Source of the DNA: a virus
Length of the DNA stretch: 64,000 nt
Strand: one strand, 5' to 3'
IMG/VR virus record: IMGVR_UViG_3300042541_001664
Location: 1 to 64,000 of that record
In this document: in pieces, positions 50,097 through 56,476 of the stretch
How positions within the stretch are numbered: the stretch's first letter is position 1
Layout: every line of letters starts with the position of its first letter
Position numbers and translations under genes: made by a program
Notes under the pieces: model-generated
What the model was told of the DNA's origin: nothing
The model's input: only the letters and a program-made list of their open reading frames with translations
The model's database searches: none

Positions 50097-50687
50097 ATGG
50101 AAAAAGAAACATTAAAAAAGATATTCAATTTTCTTGAAAAGAATGATAACAGAAATGTACCATTTATTTGGAAATTATTAAATAATGAACCATTCACAGA
50201 AGAAGAATTAAATATTAAAGGTGATTTAAATTTATCAGAAACACCCATAGAGTCATTACCTAATGGTTTGGTAGTTAGTGGTGATTTAATTTTATCCGAA
50301 TGTGAAAGTTTACGTTCTCTACCAAAAGGATTGAAAGTTGGAGGTAGTTTGGATTTATCATATTCATTACATTTAGACTCATTACCTAATGGTTTAGTAG
50401 TTGGTGGTGATTTAATTTTATCTGGTTGTGAAAGTTTAGATTCCCTACCAGAAGGATTGAAAGTTGGTGGTGAATTGCATTTAGATAATAGTGATGTTTA
50501 TGAATTACCAAAAGGATTAGAGATTGGTGGGGATTTAATTGTTACTAATTCAGCATTAGAGGAATATAGTGATAAAAAGTTAAGAAAAATGATTCAACCT
50601 GGGTTTATAAAAGGTAAGATATTTTATAATAATGAGGATGCTGATAGTGATGATGATGATTATGATGAAGAAGATGATGATGATTGA
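50097..50687 (+). CDS. LPxGL-repeat (LRR-like) family protein, copy 11
   Basis: 196 residues, first of a five-gene rightward array, with five units; two carry Cys-Glu-Ser insertions (ECESLRSLPKGL, GCESLDSLPEGL). N-cap FIWKLLNNEPFTEEEL and C-cap YSDKKLRKMIQPGFIKG. It ends in a long acidic tail (about 18 Asp/Glu-rich residues) that other members lack except copy 9. Confidence 0.75.
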   Translation: MEKETLKKIFNFLEKNDNRNVPFIWKLLNNEPFTEEELNIKGDLNLSETPIESLPNGLVVSGDLILSECESLRSLPKGLKVGGSLDLSYSLHLDSLPNGLVVGGDLILSGCESLDSLPEGLKVGGELHLDNSDVYELPKGLEIGGDLIVTNSALEEYSDKKLRKMIQPGFIKGKIFYNNEDADSDDDDYDEEDDDD

Positions 50688-50704
50688 TTTAAATTAAATA
50701 TATA

Positions 50705-51238
50705 ATGAAAAAAGAAACACTAAAAAAGATATTTAAATTCCTTGAAGAAAATGGTGAGCATAATGCACCACTTATGTGGAAATTACAAAACAATATACCA
50801 ATAACAGAAGATGATTTGATTGTTAATGGTGATTTGAATTTAACAAAAACAGATATTGAATCATTACCAGATGGATTGAAAGTTGAGAATAATTTAAGTT
50901 TATATGGTTGTAAAAATATACAATCATTACCAGAAGGATTAGAAGTTGGGGGGCATTTGGATTTGGGATATTCAAATATAACATCATTACCAAAAGGGTT
51001 GAAAGTTGGTGGGAGTTTATCTTTATTTGATTGTGCAAATATAACTTCACTACCAGAAGGCTTGAAGGTTGGGCGTAATTTAGATTTAGGTTTTACAAAA
51101 ATAATCTCATTACCAAGAGGGTTAAAAGTTGAGGGCTTTATAGATTTGAATGGTACAAAATTAACAGAATACACAGATGATGAATTAAGAAAAATGATTA
51201 AACCTGGATATATAAAAGGAAGAATAATTAAAGTTTAG
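50705..51238 (+). CDS. LPxGL-repeat (LRR-like) family protein, copy 12
   Basis: 177 residues with five units, two with Cys-containing insertions (GCKNIQSLPEGL, DCANITSLPEGL). The 17-base gap before it (TTTAAATTAAATATATA) is repeated before copy 15, so intergenic DNA was duplicated with the genes. Confidence 0.75.
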   Translation: MKKETLKKIFKFLEENGEHNAPLMWKLQNNIPITEDDLIVNGDLNLTKTDIESLPDGLKVENNLSLYGCKNIQSLPEGLEVGGHLDLGYSNITSLPKGLKVGGSLSLFDCANITSLPEGLKVGRNLDLGFTKIISLPRGLKVEGFIDLNGTKLTEYTDDELRKMIKPGYIKGRIIKV

Positions 51239-51241
51239 TTA

Positions 51242-51592
51242 ATGGAAAAAGAAACACTAAAAAAAATACTTGATTTTCTTAAACAGAATGAGAATAGAAA
51301 TATTCCAATTGCTTGGAAATTAATAAATAATGAACCATTAACAGAAAAGGAATTAACTATTGATCGTGATTTGGATTTAAAAGGTTCAACTATTAAATCC
51401 TTACCAGAATATTTAAATATTAAAGATGATTTGGATTTATCTCACACAAAAATAACCTCATTACCAAAAGGATTAAAAGTTGGTGAAAATTTATATATTA
51501 AAAACAGCCCATTAACTAAATATTCAGATTATGAAATAATAAAAATGATTGCGCCTGGATATATTCAAGGTAAAATAGATAGAAGTTGGTAA
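51242..51592 (+). CDS. LPxGL-repeat (LRR-like) family protein, copy 13
   Basis: 116 residues with two units, intact caps (AWKLINNEPLTEKEL; YSDYEIIKMIAPGYIQG). It starts three bases after the preceding stop. Confidence 0.75.
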   Translation: MEKETLKKILDFLKQNENRNIPIAWKLINNEPLTEKELTIDRDLDLKGSTIKSLPEYLNIKDDLDLSHTKITSLPKGLKVGENLYIKNSPLTKYSDYEIIKMIAPGYIQGKIDRSW

Positions 51593-51595
51593 ATT

Positions 51596-52090
51596 ATGGA
51601 AAAAGAAACACTAAAAAAGATATTCAATTTTCTTGAAGAAAATGAAAGACATCAAACTCCATTTTTGTGGAAATGGGTAAATAATATACCATTAACAGAA
51701 AAAGATTTAAATATTGAAGGTGAATTGGATTTAACAAACACAGATATTAAATCATTACCAGATGGATTGAAAGTTTCTGGGGATTTGAATTTAACTGAAA
51801 CAGATATGGAATCATTACCAGAAAGATTGGAAGTTGCTGGTAATTTATATTTGGATCACAGTTTTATAAAATCATTACCAAAGGACTTGAAGGTTGGTGG
51901 GGATTTGAGTATTGAAGCCACTTACATAAAATCATTACCAAGAGGCTTACAAGTTGGTGGTGATTTATATTTGAATGATAGTTATTTGTATAAGACCACA
52001 TCCCTTAATGAATTAAGGGATATTGTAAAAAAAATGGTTGAACCTGGTTTTATTAAAGGTAATGTAATTTTTGATGACTATGATGATTGA
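51596..52090 (+). CDS. LPxGL-repeat (LRR-like) family protein, copy 14
   Basis: 164 residues with four units. The C-cap has an insertion (TTSLNELRDIVKKMVEPGFIKG) and an acidic end (FDDYDD). Three bases separate it from copy 13. Confidence 0.75.
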   Translation: MEKETLKKIFNFLEENERHQTPFLWKWVNNIPLTEKDLNIEGELDLTNTDIKSLPDGLKVSGDLNLTETDMESLPERLEVAGNLYLDHSFIKSLPKDLKVGGDLSIEATYIKSLPRGLQVGGDLYLNDSYLYKTTSLNELRDIVKKMVEPGFIKGNVIFDDYDD

Positions 52091-52107
52091 TTTAAATTAA
52101 ATATATA

Positions 52108-52587
52108 ATGGAAAAAGAAACACTAAAAAAGATATTTGATTTTCTTGAAGAAAATGATAATAAAAGAAAACCACTTATGTGGAAATTAAAAAACAATATA
52201 CCAATAACAGAAAAAGATGATTTGATTGTTAAAGGTAGTTTGGATTTATCTAGTTCAAACATAACCTCACTACCAAAAGGTTTGGAAGTTAAAGGTGGTT
52301 TAAGTTTATATGAATCAGAAATAATCTCCTTACCAGAAGGCTTGAAGGTTGGGGGTGATTTAGATTTAAGAAATTCATATATAGAAAGTTTACCAGAAGG
52401 ATTGGAAGTTGGGGATGAATTGGATTTAGCATATACATACATAACCTCACTACCAAAAGGCTTGAAAGTTGGGAGTATTTTGATTATAATTGAGAGTGAA
52501 TTATTAAAATATTCAGATAAAGAAATAAGAAAAATGATTGAACCTGGGTATATTAAAGGGAAAATAATTAGAGAATATTATAGATAA
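52108..52587 (+). CDS. LPxGL-repeat (LRR-like) family protein, copy 15
   Basis: 159 residues with four units; N-cap LMWKLKNNIPITEKDDL is close to that of copy 12 (LMWKLQNNIPITEDDL) and the preceding spacer is identical too, showing that the pair arose by duplication. Ends the array. Confidence 0.75.
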   Translation: MEKETLKKIFDFLEENDNKRKPLMWKLKNNIPITEKDDLIVKGSLDLSSSNITSLPKGLEVKGGLSLYESEIISLPEGLKVGGDLDLRNSYIESLPEGLEVGDELDLAYTYITSLPKGLKVGSILIIIESELLKYSDKEIRKMIEPGYIKGKIIREYYR

Positions 52588-53443: not shown

Positions 53444-55444
53444 TTAGTTTATAATAACATTTTCATCTGCGACAGTTAAAGCGTATTTTGTATTTTCTTT
53501 AACTATATTGTTTAATACTTCATCTGATATTAAATCTTCAATTTTATCTTGTATCGCTCTTTTAATTGGTCTAGCACCGTAAGTTTCATCGAATCCAACT
53601 TTTCTAATTAAATCAATTACTTTATCATCATAAGTGAATTCATAATTCGCATCACTCAATCTTTTCATTAATTTATTTAATTCTAATTTTGTTATTTCTT
53701 TAACATTATCATCTGTTAAAGTATTGAACACGATTGTTTCATCAATACGATTTAAGAACTCTGGCGTAAAGAATTTTTTCAATTCTTTTAATAACATTTC
53801 TTTTTTAGCTTCTTCATTTCCGTATTTTGAATTACTAAAACTAATACCAGTTCCAAAATCTTGGAATTTTTTAATCCCCAAGTTTGAGGTTAATACGATG
53901 ATTGTATTTTTAAAATTGACTGTTTTACCTAGGCTATCAGTTAGATGACCATCATCTAATATTTGCAATAGTAAATTAAATACATCTTTGTGAGCCTTTT
54001 CAATCTCGTCAAATAAAATGATTGAATAGGGGTTATTTTTAACTTTTTCAGTTAACTGACCACCTTCTTCGTGTGAAACATATCCTGGGGGTGAACCAAT
54101 TAGTCTTGATATGGTGTGCTTTTCTTGGTATTCACTCATATCAATTCTTATAATTGATTTTTCATCACCAAATAATTGTTTTGCTAATTGTTTGGCTAAC
54201 ATAGATTTACCTACACCAGTTGAGCCTAAAAATATAAAGCTACCGATTGGTTTATTTGGATCCTTAATGTTTAATTTGTTTCTCTTTATTGATTTAACAA
54301 TTGAATTTACTGCCAAATCTTGACCAATTACATTTTCTTTAAGTTTTTTATCCAAATCTATTAATACTTTCTTGTCGTCAACAGATAGATGAGATATTGG
54401 TATATTTGAGATTAATGAAATTGTTTCATACACATCATCTAACTCGACAATTTTCTTGTTTTCTAATGTATCTTTCTCAAATTTTTTATTTTCCGCTTCT
54501 AGTTTATTAAATAACTTTAATTCCTTATCTCTTATCTCGGCAGCCAATTCATATTGTTGGTTAATAACTACTTTCGTTTTCTCCGCTTTTAGTTCATTTA
54601 TTTTTTCCTTCAATTTTTTAATTGATTCTGGAATTTTAATGTCAATCTGTAATTTTGCACCAACTTCATCAATAATATCAAAAGCCTTGTCTGGGAAAGC
54701 ACGATCGGTAATATACCTATCAGCAAGTTTCACACAAGCACTAATAATTTCTTTACCATACGAAACTTTATGATGGGACTCGTATTTGTCAATTGAATTA
54801 TTAACAATTTGAATGGTTTCATCCACATTAGGTTGGGTTAATTTTATCTTTTGGAATCTTCTGGCTAATGCCCCATCTTTCTCAAAAGATTTTTTATATT
54901 CATCAGTAGTTGTTGCACCAATACATTGTATTTCACCAGATGCTAATGCTGGCTTAAATATATTAGCCCCATCCATAGCACCAGAGGAATTTCCAGACCC
55001 AATTAATGTATGTATTTCATCAATAAAAATAATAACATTTGGATTTTCGTTCAATTCTTGAATTATAACTTTTAATCTTTCTTCAAATTGTCCCCTATAT
55101 TTTGTTCCAGCAACAACCGATGTTAAATCTAAATTAACAATTCTTTTATTTAATAAATTTTGAGGACCTTCACCTCTTGAAATCATTAGGGCTACACCCT
55201 CAACCAAGTTGGTTTTACCACAACCTGGGTCACCAACAATAATCGGATTATTTTTCTTTCGCCTTGATAGGATTTGAGCTAATCTCTTAACTTCTTTATC
55301 CCTACCAATAGACATATCTAACTTATTCATCTCTGCTAATTTAGATAAATCCCTACTAAAATTATCTAAGACAGGTGTTTTAGACCCTGAGTTAGATTTC
55401 TTACCTTTCATTGCTTTTTCATCATCAAAGAAATCAACATTCAT
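53444..55444 (-). CDS. ClpC-like AAA+ unfoldase without Clp N-domain
   Basis: 666 residues from ATG 55444; the longer frame uses TTG and contains the promoter box. Two AAA+ modules: Walker A GDPGCGKTN and GSTGVGKS, Walker B IIFIDEIHTL and IILFDEIEKAH, arginine-finger region ALARRF, and a middle UVR-like QQYELAAEIRDKEL typical of ClpC. The usual N-terminal repeat domain is absent. The ClpP-docking loop reads FGTGISFS where Bacteroidota ClpC usually has a GF tripeptide. It unfolds proteins for ClpP, here probably the phage ClpP. Confidence 0.85.
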   Translation of the reverse strand: MNVDFFDDEKAMKGKKSNSGSKTPVLDNFSRDLSKLAEMNKLDMSIGRDKEVKRLAQILSRRKKNNPIIVGDPGCGKTNLVEGVALMISRGEGPQNLLNKRIVNLDLTSVVAGTKYRGQFEERLKVIIQELNENPNVIIFIDEIHTLIGSGNSSGAMDGANIFKPALASGEIQCIGATTTDEYKKSFEKDGALARRFQKIKLTQPNVDETIQIVNNSIDKYESHHKVSYGKEIISACVKLADRYITDRAFPDKAFDIIDEVGAKLQIDIKIPESIKKLKEKINELKAEKTKVVINQQYELAAEIRDKELKLFNKLEAENKKFEKDTLENKKIVELDDVYETISLISNIPISHLSVDDKKVLIDLDKKLKENVIGQDLAVNSIVKSIKRNKLNIKDPNKPIGSFIFLGSTGVGKSMLAKQLAKQLFGDEKSIIRIDMSEYQEKHTISRLIGSPPGYVSHEEGGQLTEKVKNNPYSIILFDEIEKAHKDVFNLLLQILDDGHLTDSLGKTVNFKNTIIVLTSNLGIKKFQDFGTGISFSNSKYGNEEAKKEMLLKELKKFFTPEFLNRIDETIVFNTLTDDNVKEITKLELNKLMKRLSDANYEFTYDDKVIDLIRKVGFDETYGARPIKRAIQDKIEDLISDEVLNNIVKENTKYALTVADENVIIN

Positions 55445-55458
55445 AGCTTTTATTTTTT

Positions 55459-55466
55459 TATAAATA
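55459..55466 (-). promoter_or_regulatory. Putative late promoter box TATTTATA
   Basis: GATATTTATAAAAAAATAAAAG on the minus strand, 14 bases before ATG 55444. Confidence 0.55.
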
Positions 55467-55496
55467 TCATACAATTTTCGGACTAATCAAATATTT

Positions 55497-55562
55497 TTGA
55501 CAAATTGTCATAAATATAATAAAGAATATGACAAATAGTCATACTATATGACAAAATGTCAT
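55497..55562. promoter_or_regulatory. Triple palindrome, putative operator
   Basis: Three 15-base inverted repeats: TTGACAAATTGTCAT (55497-55511), ATGACAAATAGTCAT (55528-55542) and ATGACAAAATGTCAT (55548-55562). Centres are 31 and 20 bases apart, close to three and two helical turns. They lie between the divergent clpC-like and hsp20 genes. Likely a regulator-binding array; the regulator is not known. Confidence 0.7.
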
Positions 55563-55610
55563 ATAAAAATAAATTGGCATTTAATTTGACTTTATGAAAA
55601 AAAAAATAAA

Positions 55611-55630: not shown

Positions 55631-56044
55631 ATGAAAGACAGAGATTATTTAGCAGAGTTATTATTTGGATTATCAAATCCATTTGCCCCATCAAGTTCGT
55701 TTGGGTTTACATCAGATTCCACTTATGGACCTTATGGGGTTAAACATAATACCTATGATAGCGAATATGATATTGAATTAACTAAGGATGGCGCATACAT
55801 ATCCTTTGAAGTCCCCGGATTTACCAAAGATAACTTAGAAATATCTATAGAAGATAGAGTTATTATAATTAAAGGTGAAAGAATTATCAACAAGAAAGGT
55901 GTTGTTAAAAATATACTTCACAATTATAAAGTTGATAGTAACTTTAATGAATCAAATATTGAAGCTACGGTATCAAATGGTATTTTAACATTATTTTTAC
56001 CAAATTATATCGCTAAATCTAAAAAAACAATAACAATTAACTAA
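55631..56044 (+). CDS. Hsp20 small heat-shock protein
   Basis: 137 residues. Alpha-crystallin domain from about residue 45: YISFEVPGFTKDNLEISIED, VIIIKGER, and the closing NGILTLFLP. Ends ITIN without a long tail. It holds unfolded proteins. Transcribed away from the ClpC-like gene across a palindrome array and directly followed by cyclophilin. Confidence 0.88.
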   Translation: MKDRDYLAELLFGLSNPFAPSSSFGFTSDSTYGPYGVKHNTYDSEYDIELTKDGAYISFEVPGFTKDNLEISIEDRVIIIKGERIINKKGVVKNILHNYKVDSNFNESNIEATVSNGILTLFLPNYIAKSKKTITIN

Positions 56045-56476
56045 ATGACAAAAGTAAAAATTGACACAGCAAAAGGAGTTATGATTGCTGAATTGTATGA
56101 CAACGAAACTCCAATTACAGTTGATAATTTCAAAAAATTAATCAGCGAAGGCTTTTATAATGGATTAAATTTCCATAGGGTTATTCCCAACTTTATGATG
56201 CAAGCAGGTTGTCCAAATGGAGTTGGAACTGGTGGCCCAGGATATACCATTAAATGTGAGGTTAATGCTGATAAGCAACACCACGATAGGGGGGTATTGA
56301 GTATGGCTCATGCTGGTAGGGATACTGGGGGATCACAATTCTTCATATGTTATAATAGGCAAGGTGTTGCTCATTTGGATGGAAATCATACATGCTTTGG
56401 TAAAGTTGTTGATGGGTTGGATGTAATTGATTCAATTAGCCAAGGTGATTTAATAAATAGTATTTCAATAATTTAA
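56045..56476 (+). CDS. Cyclophilin-type peptidyl-prolyl isomerase
   Basis: 143 residues. Active-site motifs NFHRVIPNFMMQAGC, GGSQFFICY and LDGNHTCFGKV. The GVGTGGPGY insertion fits the small bacterial type. No signal peptide. It starts one base after the hsp20 stop, so the two chaperones are co-expressed. Confidence 0.92.
   Translation: MTKVKIDTAKGVMIAELYDNETPITVDNFKKLISEGFYNGLNFHRVIPNFMMQAGCPNGVGTGGPGYTIKCEVNADKQHHDRGVLSMAHAGRDTGGSQFFICYNRQGVAHLDGNHTCFGKVVDGLDVIDSISQGDLINSISII

Follow-up and report, generated by a model that had tools for sequence, protein, structure and literature searches.

A palindromic site phased with sigma54-type promoters is common to phage and Bacteroidota chaperone genes

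Introduction

Flavobacterium psychrophilum has sigma54 transcription starts for groESL, lon, dnaK, grpE-dnaJ, htpG, and clpB, along with three proteins carrying a sigma54 interaction domain, with no assignment of activators to targets (PMC9723704), and sigma54 control of chaperones has been predicted across Bacteroidota (PMC12316311). Here, we analyze three palindromes of the form TGACA-N3-TGTCA located between a clpC-like gene and a divergent hsp20 gene in the virus record IMGVR_UViG_3300042541_001664, the first 64,000 nucleotides of which are hereafter called the window. The system described below has the same targets (groESL, dnaK, clpB) and the same -24/-12 promoter class as the F. psychrophilum sigma54 (SM4) chaperone regulon and its spread across Bacteroidota. 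However, the available portions of these two reports give no upstream activating site and assign no activator, and neither report deals with phages (PMC9723704, PMC12316311), whereas we propose here a site with a defined phasing and a candidate activator, in an arrangement that phage promoters share.

Other described systems share individual features with this locus. In cyanophages, Pho boxes recognized by PhoBR of the host likewise associate phage genes with the binding site of a host stress regulator, although they involve phosphate stress, another regulator family, and another promoter class, and were characterized with gel-shift and expression data as opposed to sequence alone (PMC10976474). 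Moraphages are large aquatic Bacteroidota phages with ClpA, DnaK, DnaJ, and Hsp20 genes; the study describing them lists these genes and their origin, and a term search of its available text returned no operator or sigma54 analysis (PMC12619734). Finally, CIRCE/HrcA and HAIR/HspR also consist of inverted repeats before chaperone genes. CIRCE is made of 9-bp arms separated by N9, and HAIR of CTTGAGT-N7-ACTCAAG; the phage sites differ from both in core sequence and spacer. Moreover, CIRCE and HAIR bind repressors, whereas the phage sites are in helical phase with a sigma54 element, which suggests activation. Searches of the open-access literature returned no description of the TGACA-N3-TGTCA site, of the way it is phase-locked to the promoter, or of phages using it.

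Results

Three palindromes in phase with a sigma54-type promoter

Based on the analyses below, a host-type heat-shock upstream activating sequence and a sigma54-type promoter probably drive the phage hsp20–cyclophilin genes and are read by a host activator. The initial annotation had reported three palindromes, which do exist at the centres it gave, with centre-to-centre spacings of 31 and 20 bases (Table 1), although its central spacer of 5 (TGACAN5TGTCA) has to be corrected to 3 bases. When the window was Markov-shuffled 400 times, three sites with at most one mismatch never occurred within 70 bp, and two such sites did so once, so that a chance origin of the cluster is excluded. Beyond this cluster, the whole 73,456-base virus record contains no exact site. 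Upon inspection of the site sequences, the characteristic core of neither CIRCE/HrcA nor HAIR/HspR was present, in agreement with the initial annotation.

On the hsp20 side, the palindromes are followed by a functional-looking -24/-12 promoter element that was absent from the initial annotation. Transcripts of sigma54-dependent promoters begin ~12 bp downstream of the -12 element and depend on rpoN. Where the sigma54 element usually reads GG-N10-GC, the window reads GG-N10-GA; this last base is mostly A rather than C, also in hosts. Similarly, host chaperone promoters downstream of the sites display a GG[CTA]AT-N5-TTGA-like sequence of the sigma54-class -24/-12 type. A GG[CTA]AN8G[ACT] element follows the sites in 39 of the 44 phage loci that carry the operator and in 46 of the 50 hsp20 loci from hosts, compared to 5% and 10% of the shuffles, respectively.

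The distance between sites and promoter element is strongly patterned. From site centre to -24 GG, most phages display ~20.5 bp, and the others distances that increase by ~10.5-bp steps (42, 52, 62, 73, 83), while distances at host hsp20 promoters were 21, 32, 42, 53, 63, 73, and 84. The same 10.5-bp phase with the -24 element was found for host clpB and dnaK, and is suggestive for host groES (n = 8). Nominal p-values for this phase are very small but overstated, since sites from the same promoter and related genomes were treated as independent, and the pattern alone is reliable.

Two other types of promoters were considered. In T4-type late promoters, TATAAATA is found on the coding strand ~10 bp before the transcription start, and the palindromes had been annotated as lying upstream of such late-type boxes for both genes. 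This was not supported: the window, with a GC content of 29%, includes many copies of the octamer (23 on the + strand and 20 on the - strand), and a T4-type late promoter was rejected for the chaperone genes, the copy at 55459 being on the strand opposite clpC and far from hsp20. On the clpC side, a sigma-A promoter of the Bacteroidota type, TTTG-N20-NANNTTTG (TTTG-N20-[CT]ANNTTTG), adjoins the proximal site in ~20 relatives. A promoter reading based exclusively on sigma-A was also rejected, as the conserved hsp20-side element is sigma54-like; instead, sigma-A (clpC side) and sigma54-type (hsp20 side) promoters may coexist.

Conservation across phages

A search with ClpC yielded 80 viral loci, mostly from partial or fragmented records, and 53 of these were retained after redundancy removal. 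The site was found upstream of clpC as an exact copy in 33 of the 53 loci, and within one mismatch in 42. Across these loci, 43 exact copies were located within 17.1 kb of clpC upstream sequence and none in the remaining 545 kb, and the spacings between neighboring sites cluster at 20–22, 30–32, and 41–43. While the loss of the palindromes from close relatives with the same gene pair had been named as an argument against their role, hsp20 relatives at 88% identity keep all three sites, with a spacing of 31/31 rather than 31/20, i.e., one helical turn more.

When viral contigs were scanned for two exact sites independently of any gene, we recovered numerous promoters of clpC, promoters of hsp20 at loci without clpC, and clpC genes divergent from a small two-UVR-motif protein or from DnaK. 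In many relatives (L221, L228, L250, L224, L251, L216, L268), the gene divergent from clpC encodes a two-UVR-motif protein of 115–156 aa instead of Hsp20. These proteins recall McsA-type ClpC partners, and the phage ClpC carries a UVR motif too. In viral contig L261 (4840–5742), clpC is divergent from a DnaK gene with two exact sites between them, and a GG-N10-GT element toward dnaK lies 20.5 bp from the nearer site.

The same site at host chaperone promoters

For potential hosts, we sampled 119 genomes of the class of Kordia, which we take to be Bacteroidia. Because host sites are more degenerate than exact pairs, upstream regions were scored with a phage-derived matrix, built from 76 phage sites including those with one mismatch, and compared to shuffled controls that keep dinucleotide frequencies only. 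Among 91 hsp20 upstream regions, 43% included a match of at least 9 bits (3% when shuffled), and 25% a match of at least 13 bits (0.4% when shuffled). The matrix likewise found the site in 56% of groES (2% when shuffled), 30% of clpB (2%), and 58% of dnaK (1.7%) upstream regions. Several dnaK genes without their own site are found shortly downstream of a site-bearing hsp20 promoter. Across 28 host hsp20 loci of 3.3 kb, all 15 sites of at least 9 bits were in the hsp20 promoter interval, with none elsewhere.

An exact-pair scan of species genomes matched the hsp20 promoter of the flavobacterium Kordia zhangzhouensis, whose genome includes four exact sites, two of them in the hsp20 promoter and one 114 bases before the matched dnaK start, and a two-exact-site search of 296 genomes of the Bacteroidota phylum returned Kordia only. 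Among the matches listed for the exact-pair scan, which covered all genomes, most were from Firmicutes and Proteobacteria, many were inside genes, and only Kordia matched hsp20; the motif thus appears common to unrelated regulators. Paired TGACA-N3-TGTCA sites were frequent in Firmicutes among the matches listed (L096–L175), many with a spacing of 36 and several adjoining genes of ~200 aa, and these pairs probably belong to a different regulator family.

A candidate activator linked to groES

Exact sites outside of hsp20 promoters were few in 20 host genomes, and one of the strongest directly precedes a gene encoding an enhancer-binding protein with AAA+ and Fis-type domains. Orthologs were detected in 114 of the 119 Bacteroidia genomes, i.e., nearly universally, which makes the correlation between presence or absence of activator and site uninformative. 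In 9 of 25 cases, the gene is on the same contig and strand as groES, 2–4 kb before it. The loops of the orthologs are GAFTGA-like (GAFTGA or GSFTGA, in some cases GSFTSA or GAFTSA), and their recognition helix, LGISERTLYRK, hardly varies. The gene's own promoter includes a 25-bit site in genome G124 and a 15-bit site in genome G007; autoregulation as a general rule was rejected, with only 2 strong cases in 25. No enhancer-binding protein was detected in 30 phage records, mostly partial, in which the matches were cross-hits to ClpC itself. We consider that a host activator likely reads the phage sites, and that the groES-linked Fis-type enhancer-binding protein is most likely this activator, as the best candidate from the sequences compared here. 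The initial proposal, in which the palindromes serve as operator of a stress regulator, from either phage or host, that controls the chaperone set, is supported at the sequence level, with the evidence favoring its host branch.

Neighboring genes

Beyond the chaperone promoters, the window ClpC-like protein includes two AAA modules and a UVR motif. No obvious VGF, IGF, or LGF ClpP-docking tripeptide was seen by eye, hence this protein may be a disaggregase without protease. A T4-type terminase is encoded further right in the same record. A tandem run of five related leucine-rich proteins, with starts MEKETLKKIF or MKKETLKKIF, is found at 50097–52587; it probably represents a young gene-duplication array, and differs between relatives (L002, 1–1946).

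Table 1 Features of the chaperone locus in the window. Distances are from site centre to the GG of the -24 element.
Feature	Positions	Strand	Sequence or best match	Details
Operator 1 (clpC-proximal)	55498–55510	.	TGACAAATTGTCA	centre 55504; 72.5 bp
Operator 2	55529–55541	.	TGACAAATAGTCA	one arm mismatch; centre 55535; 41.5 bp
Operator 3 (hsp20-proximal)	55549–55561	.	TGACAAAATGTCA	centre 55555; 21.5 bp
sigma54-type -24/-12 element facing hsp20	55575–55589	+	TGGCATTTAATTTGA	GG 55576–55577, N10, GA 55588–55589
Possible sigma-A promoter of clpC	55460–55491	-		TTTG 55488–55491; degenerate -7 near 55461–55468; weak in the window
hsp20	55631–56044	+	PF00011, E 1.3e-11	137 aa; first gene of probable operon
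Cyclophilin-type prolyl isomerase	56045–56476	+	PF00160, E 1.9e-41	143 aa; directly after hsp20
ClpC/ClpA-like AAA+ gene, divergent	53444–55444	-	phrog_4871	666 aa from conserved ATG

Discussion

Two or three TGACA-N3-TGTCA sites share one helix face and are phased with a -24/-12 promoter of the sigma54 type. Under the proposed mechanism, this promoter would drive phage hsp20 and cyclophilin and probably also influence the divergent clpC. In Bacteroidota, the activator presumed to serve hsp20, groESL, dnaK, and clpB of the host would also bind the phage sites and, once bound, remodel sigma54 RNA polymerase at the phage promoter. The proteotoxic-stress response of the host, to heat or misfolding during infection, would thereby turn on the phage chaperones.

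Several observations weigh against this interpretation. No more than ~21 bp separate the -24 element from the nearest site (at about -45), which is closer than usual enhancers, and about one in ten operator-bearing phage loci do not have a -12 G on the hsp20 side. One clade (L069, L071, L079, L087) instead appears to have a sigma54-like GG-N10-GT facing clpC, ~20 bp from the operator. Most host copies of the candidate activator gene have no site upstream, and a phage-encoded activator could still exist because phage records are mostly partial. In addition, we infer that the host of the window phage is a member of Bacteroidota from the promoter style and the host-like elements. In the clade with the clpC-facing element, the hsp20-side element has no -12 G, as if promoter polarity had been swapped.

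Among alternatives, a possible one, which overlaps with the explanation favored here, is that the sites are bound by an activator other than the groES-linked protein, be it a different enhancer-binding protein or a distinct protein of the helix-turn-helix type. Most genomes encode two or more enhancer-binding proteins, F. psychrophilum has three for which targets were not assigned (PMC9723704), and autoregulatory sites are rare at the groES-linked protein gene. However, the latter protein occurs in nearly all genomes, its gene is often syntenic with groES, its recognition helix is near-invariant, and its promoter holds one of the strongest sites found.

It is unlikely, in our view, that a heat-sensitive host repressor holds the chaperone promoters off through these sites and releases them under stress, following an HrcA- or HspR-like logic. 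Dyad sites beside heat-shock promoters are the usual repressor-operator layout, and the nearest site abuts the promoter. Yet none of the sites overlaps the -24/-12 element, and the helical phase is held out to ~94 bp, which is a mark of polymerase contact rather than blocking; an activator is required at sigma54 promoters in any case (PMC12316311).

Even less probable is a phage-encoded regulator reading the operator, with the host likeness a relic of the acquisition of hsp20 and its promoter from a host. Phages of this kind did acquire chaperones from Flavobacteriales (PMC12619734), but the site, its phase, and the -24/-12 element are kept across phages with 62–80% identical ClpC despite widely diverged flanks, and the same sites precede different genes (hsp20, UVR protein, dnaK). 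Such a regulator is further at odds with the lack of an enhancer-binding protein in the 30 phage records and of the site elsewhere in the same loci. Lastly, it is hardly credible that the palindromes are RNA hairpins, or AT-rich sequences arisen by chance that regulate nothing: the region is AT-rich and allows 8-bp stems closed by 3-base loops, but chance is excluded by the window shuffles and by conservation, the stem loses its symmetry in relatives (GTCTTA, TGCCA) although the core is kept, and the sites are upstream of the promoter element, outside of the expected hsp20 transcript.

Returning to the host-activator explanation, sigma54 chaperone control in the phylum, phage chaperone genes (PMC12619734), and phage use of host PhoB (PMC10976474) are already known. 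A broader proposition, which we consider about evenly balanced, is that TGACA-N3-TGTCA could be the enhancer of a phylum-wide Bacteroidota sigma54 heat-shock regulon, with the groES-linked activator acting at unusually close, phase-locked sites, and that many phages would use this enhancer to put ClpC, Hsp20, UVR-motif adaptors, or DnaK under the host stress alarm.

What the open-access literature shows on the switching of heat-shock genes in Bacteroidota is the involvement of sigma54. A defined DNA site and a candidate activator make this activation directly testable, and the switch shared between phages and hosts offers a route to the protein that activates heat-shock genes throughout a bacterial phylum. 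Since phage promoters carry the apparent host heat-shock site, the host stress alarm probably also turns on the chaperones of the virus. This would represent a further case, beside the cyanophage Pho boxes, of phage helper genes wired into a host stress circuit; with chaperones as the helpers, phage folding capacity would rise upon misfolding in the host, e.g., during virion production or heat.
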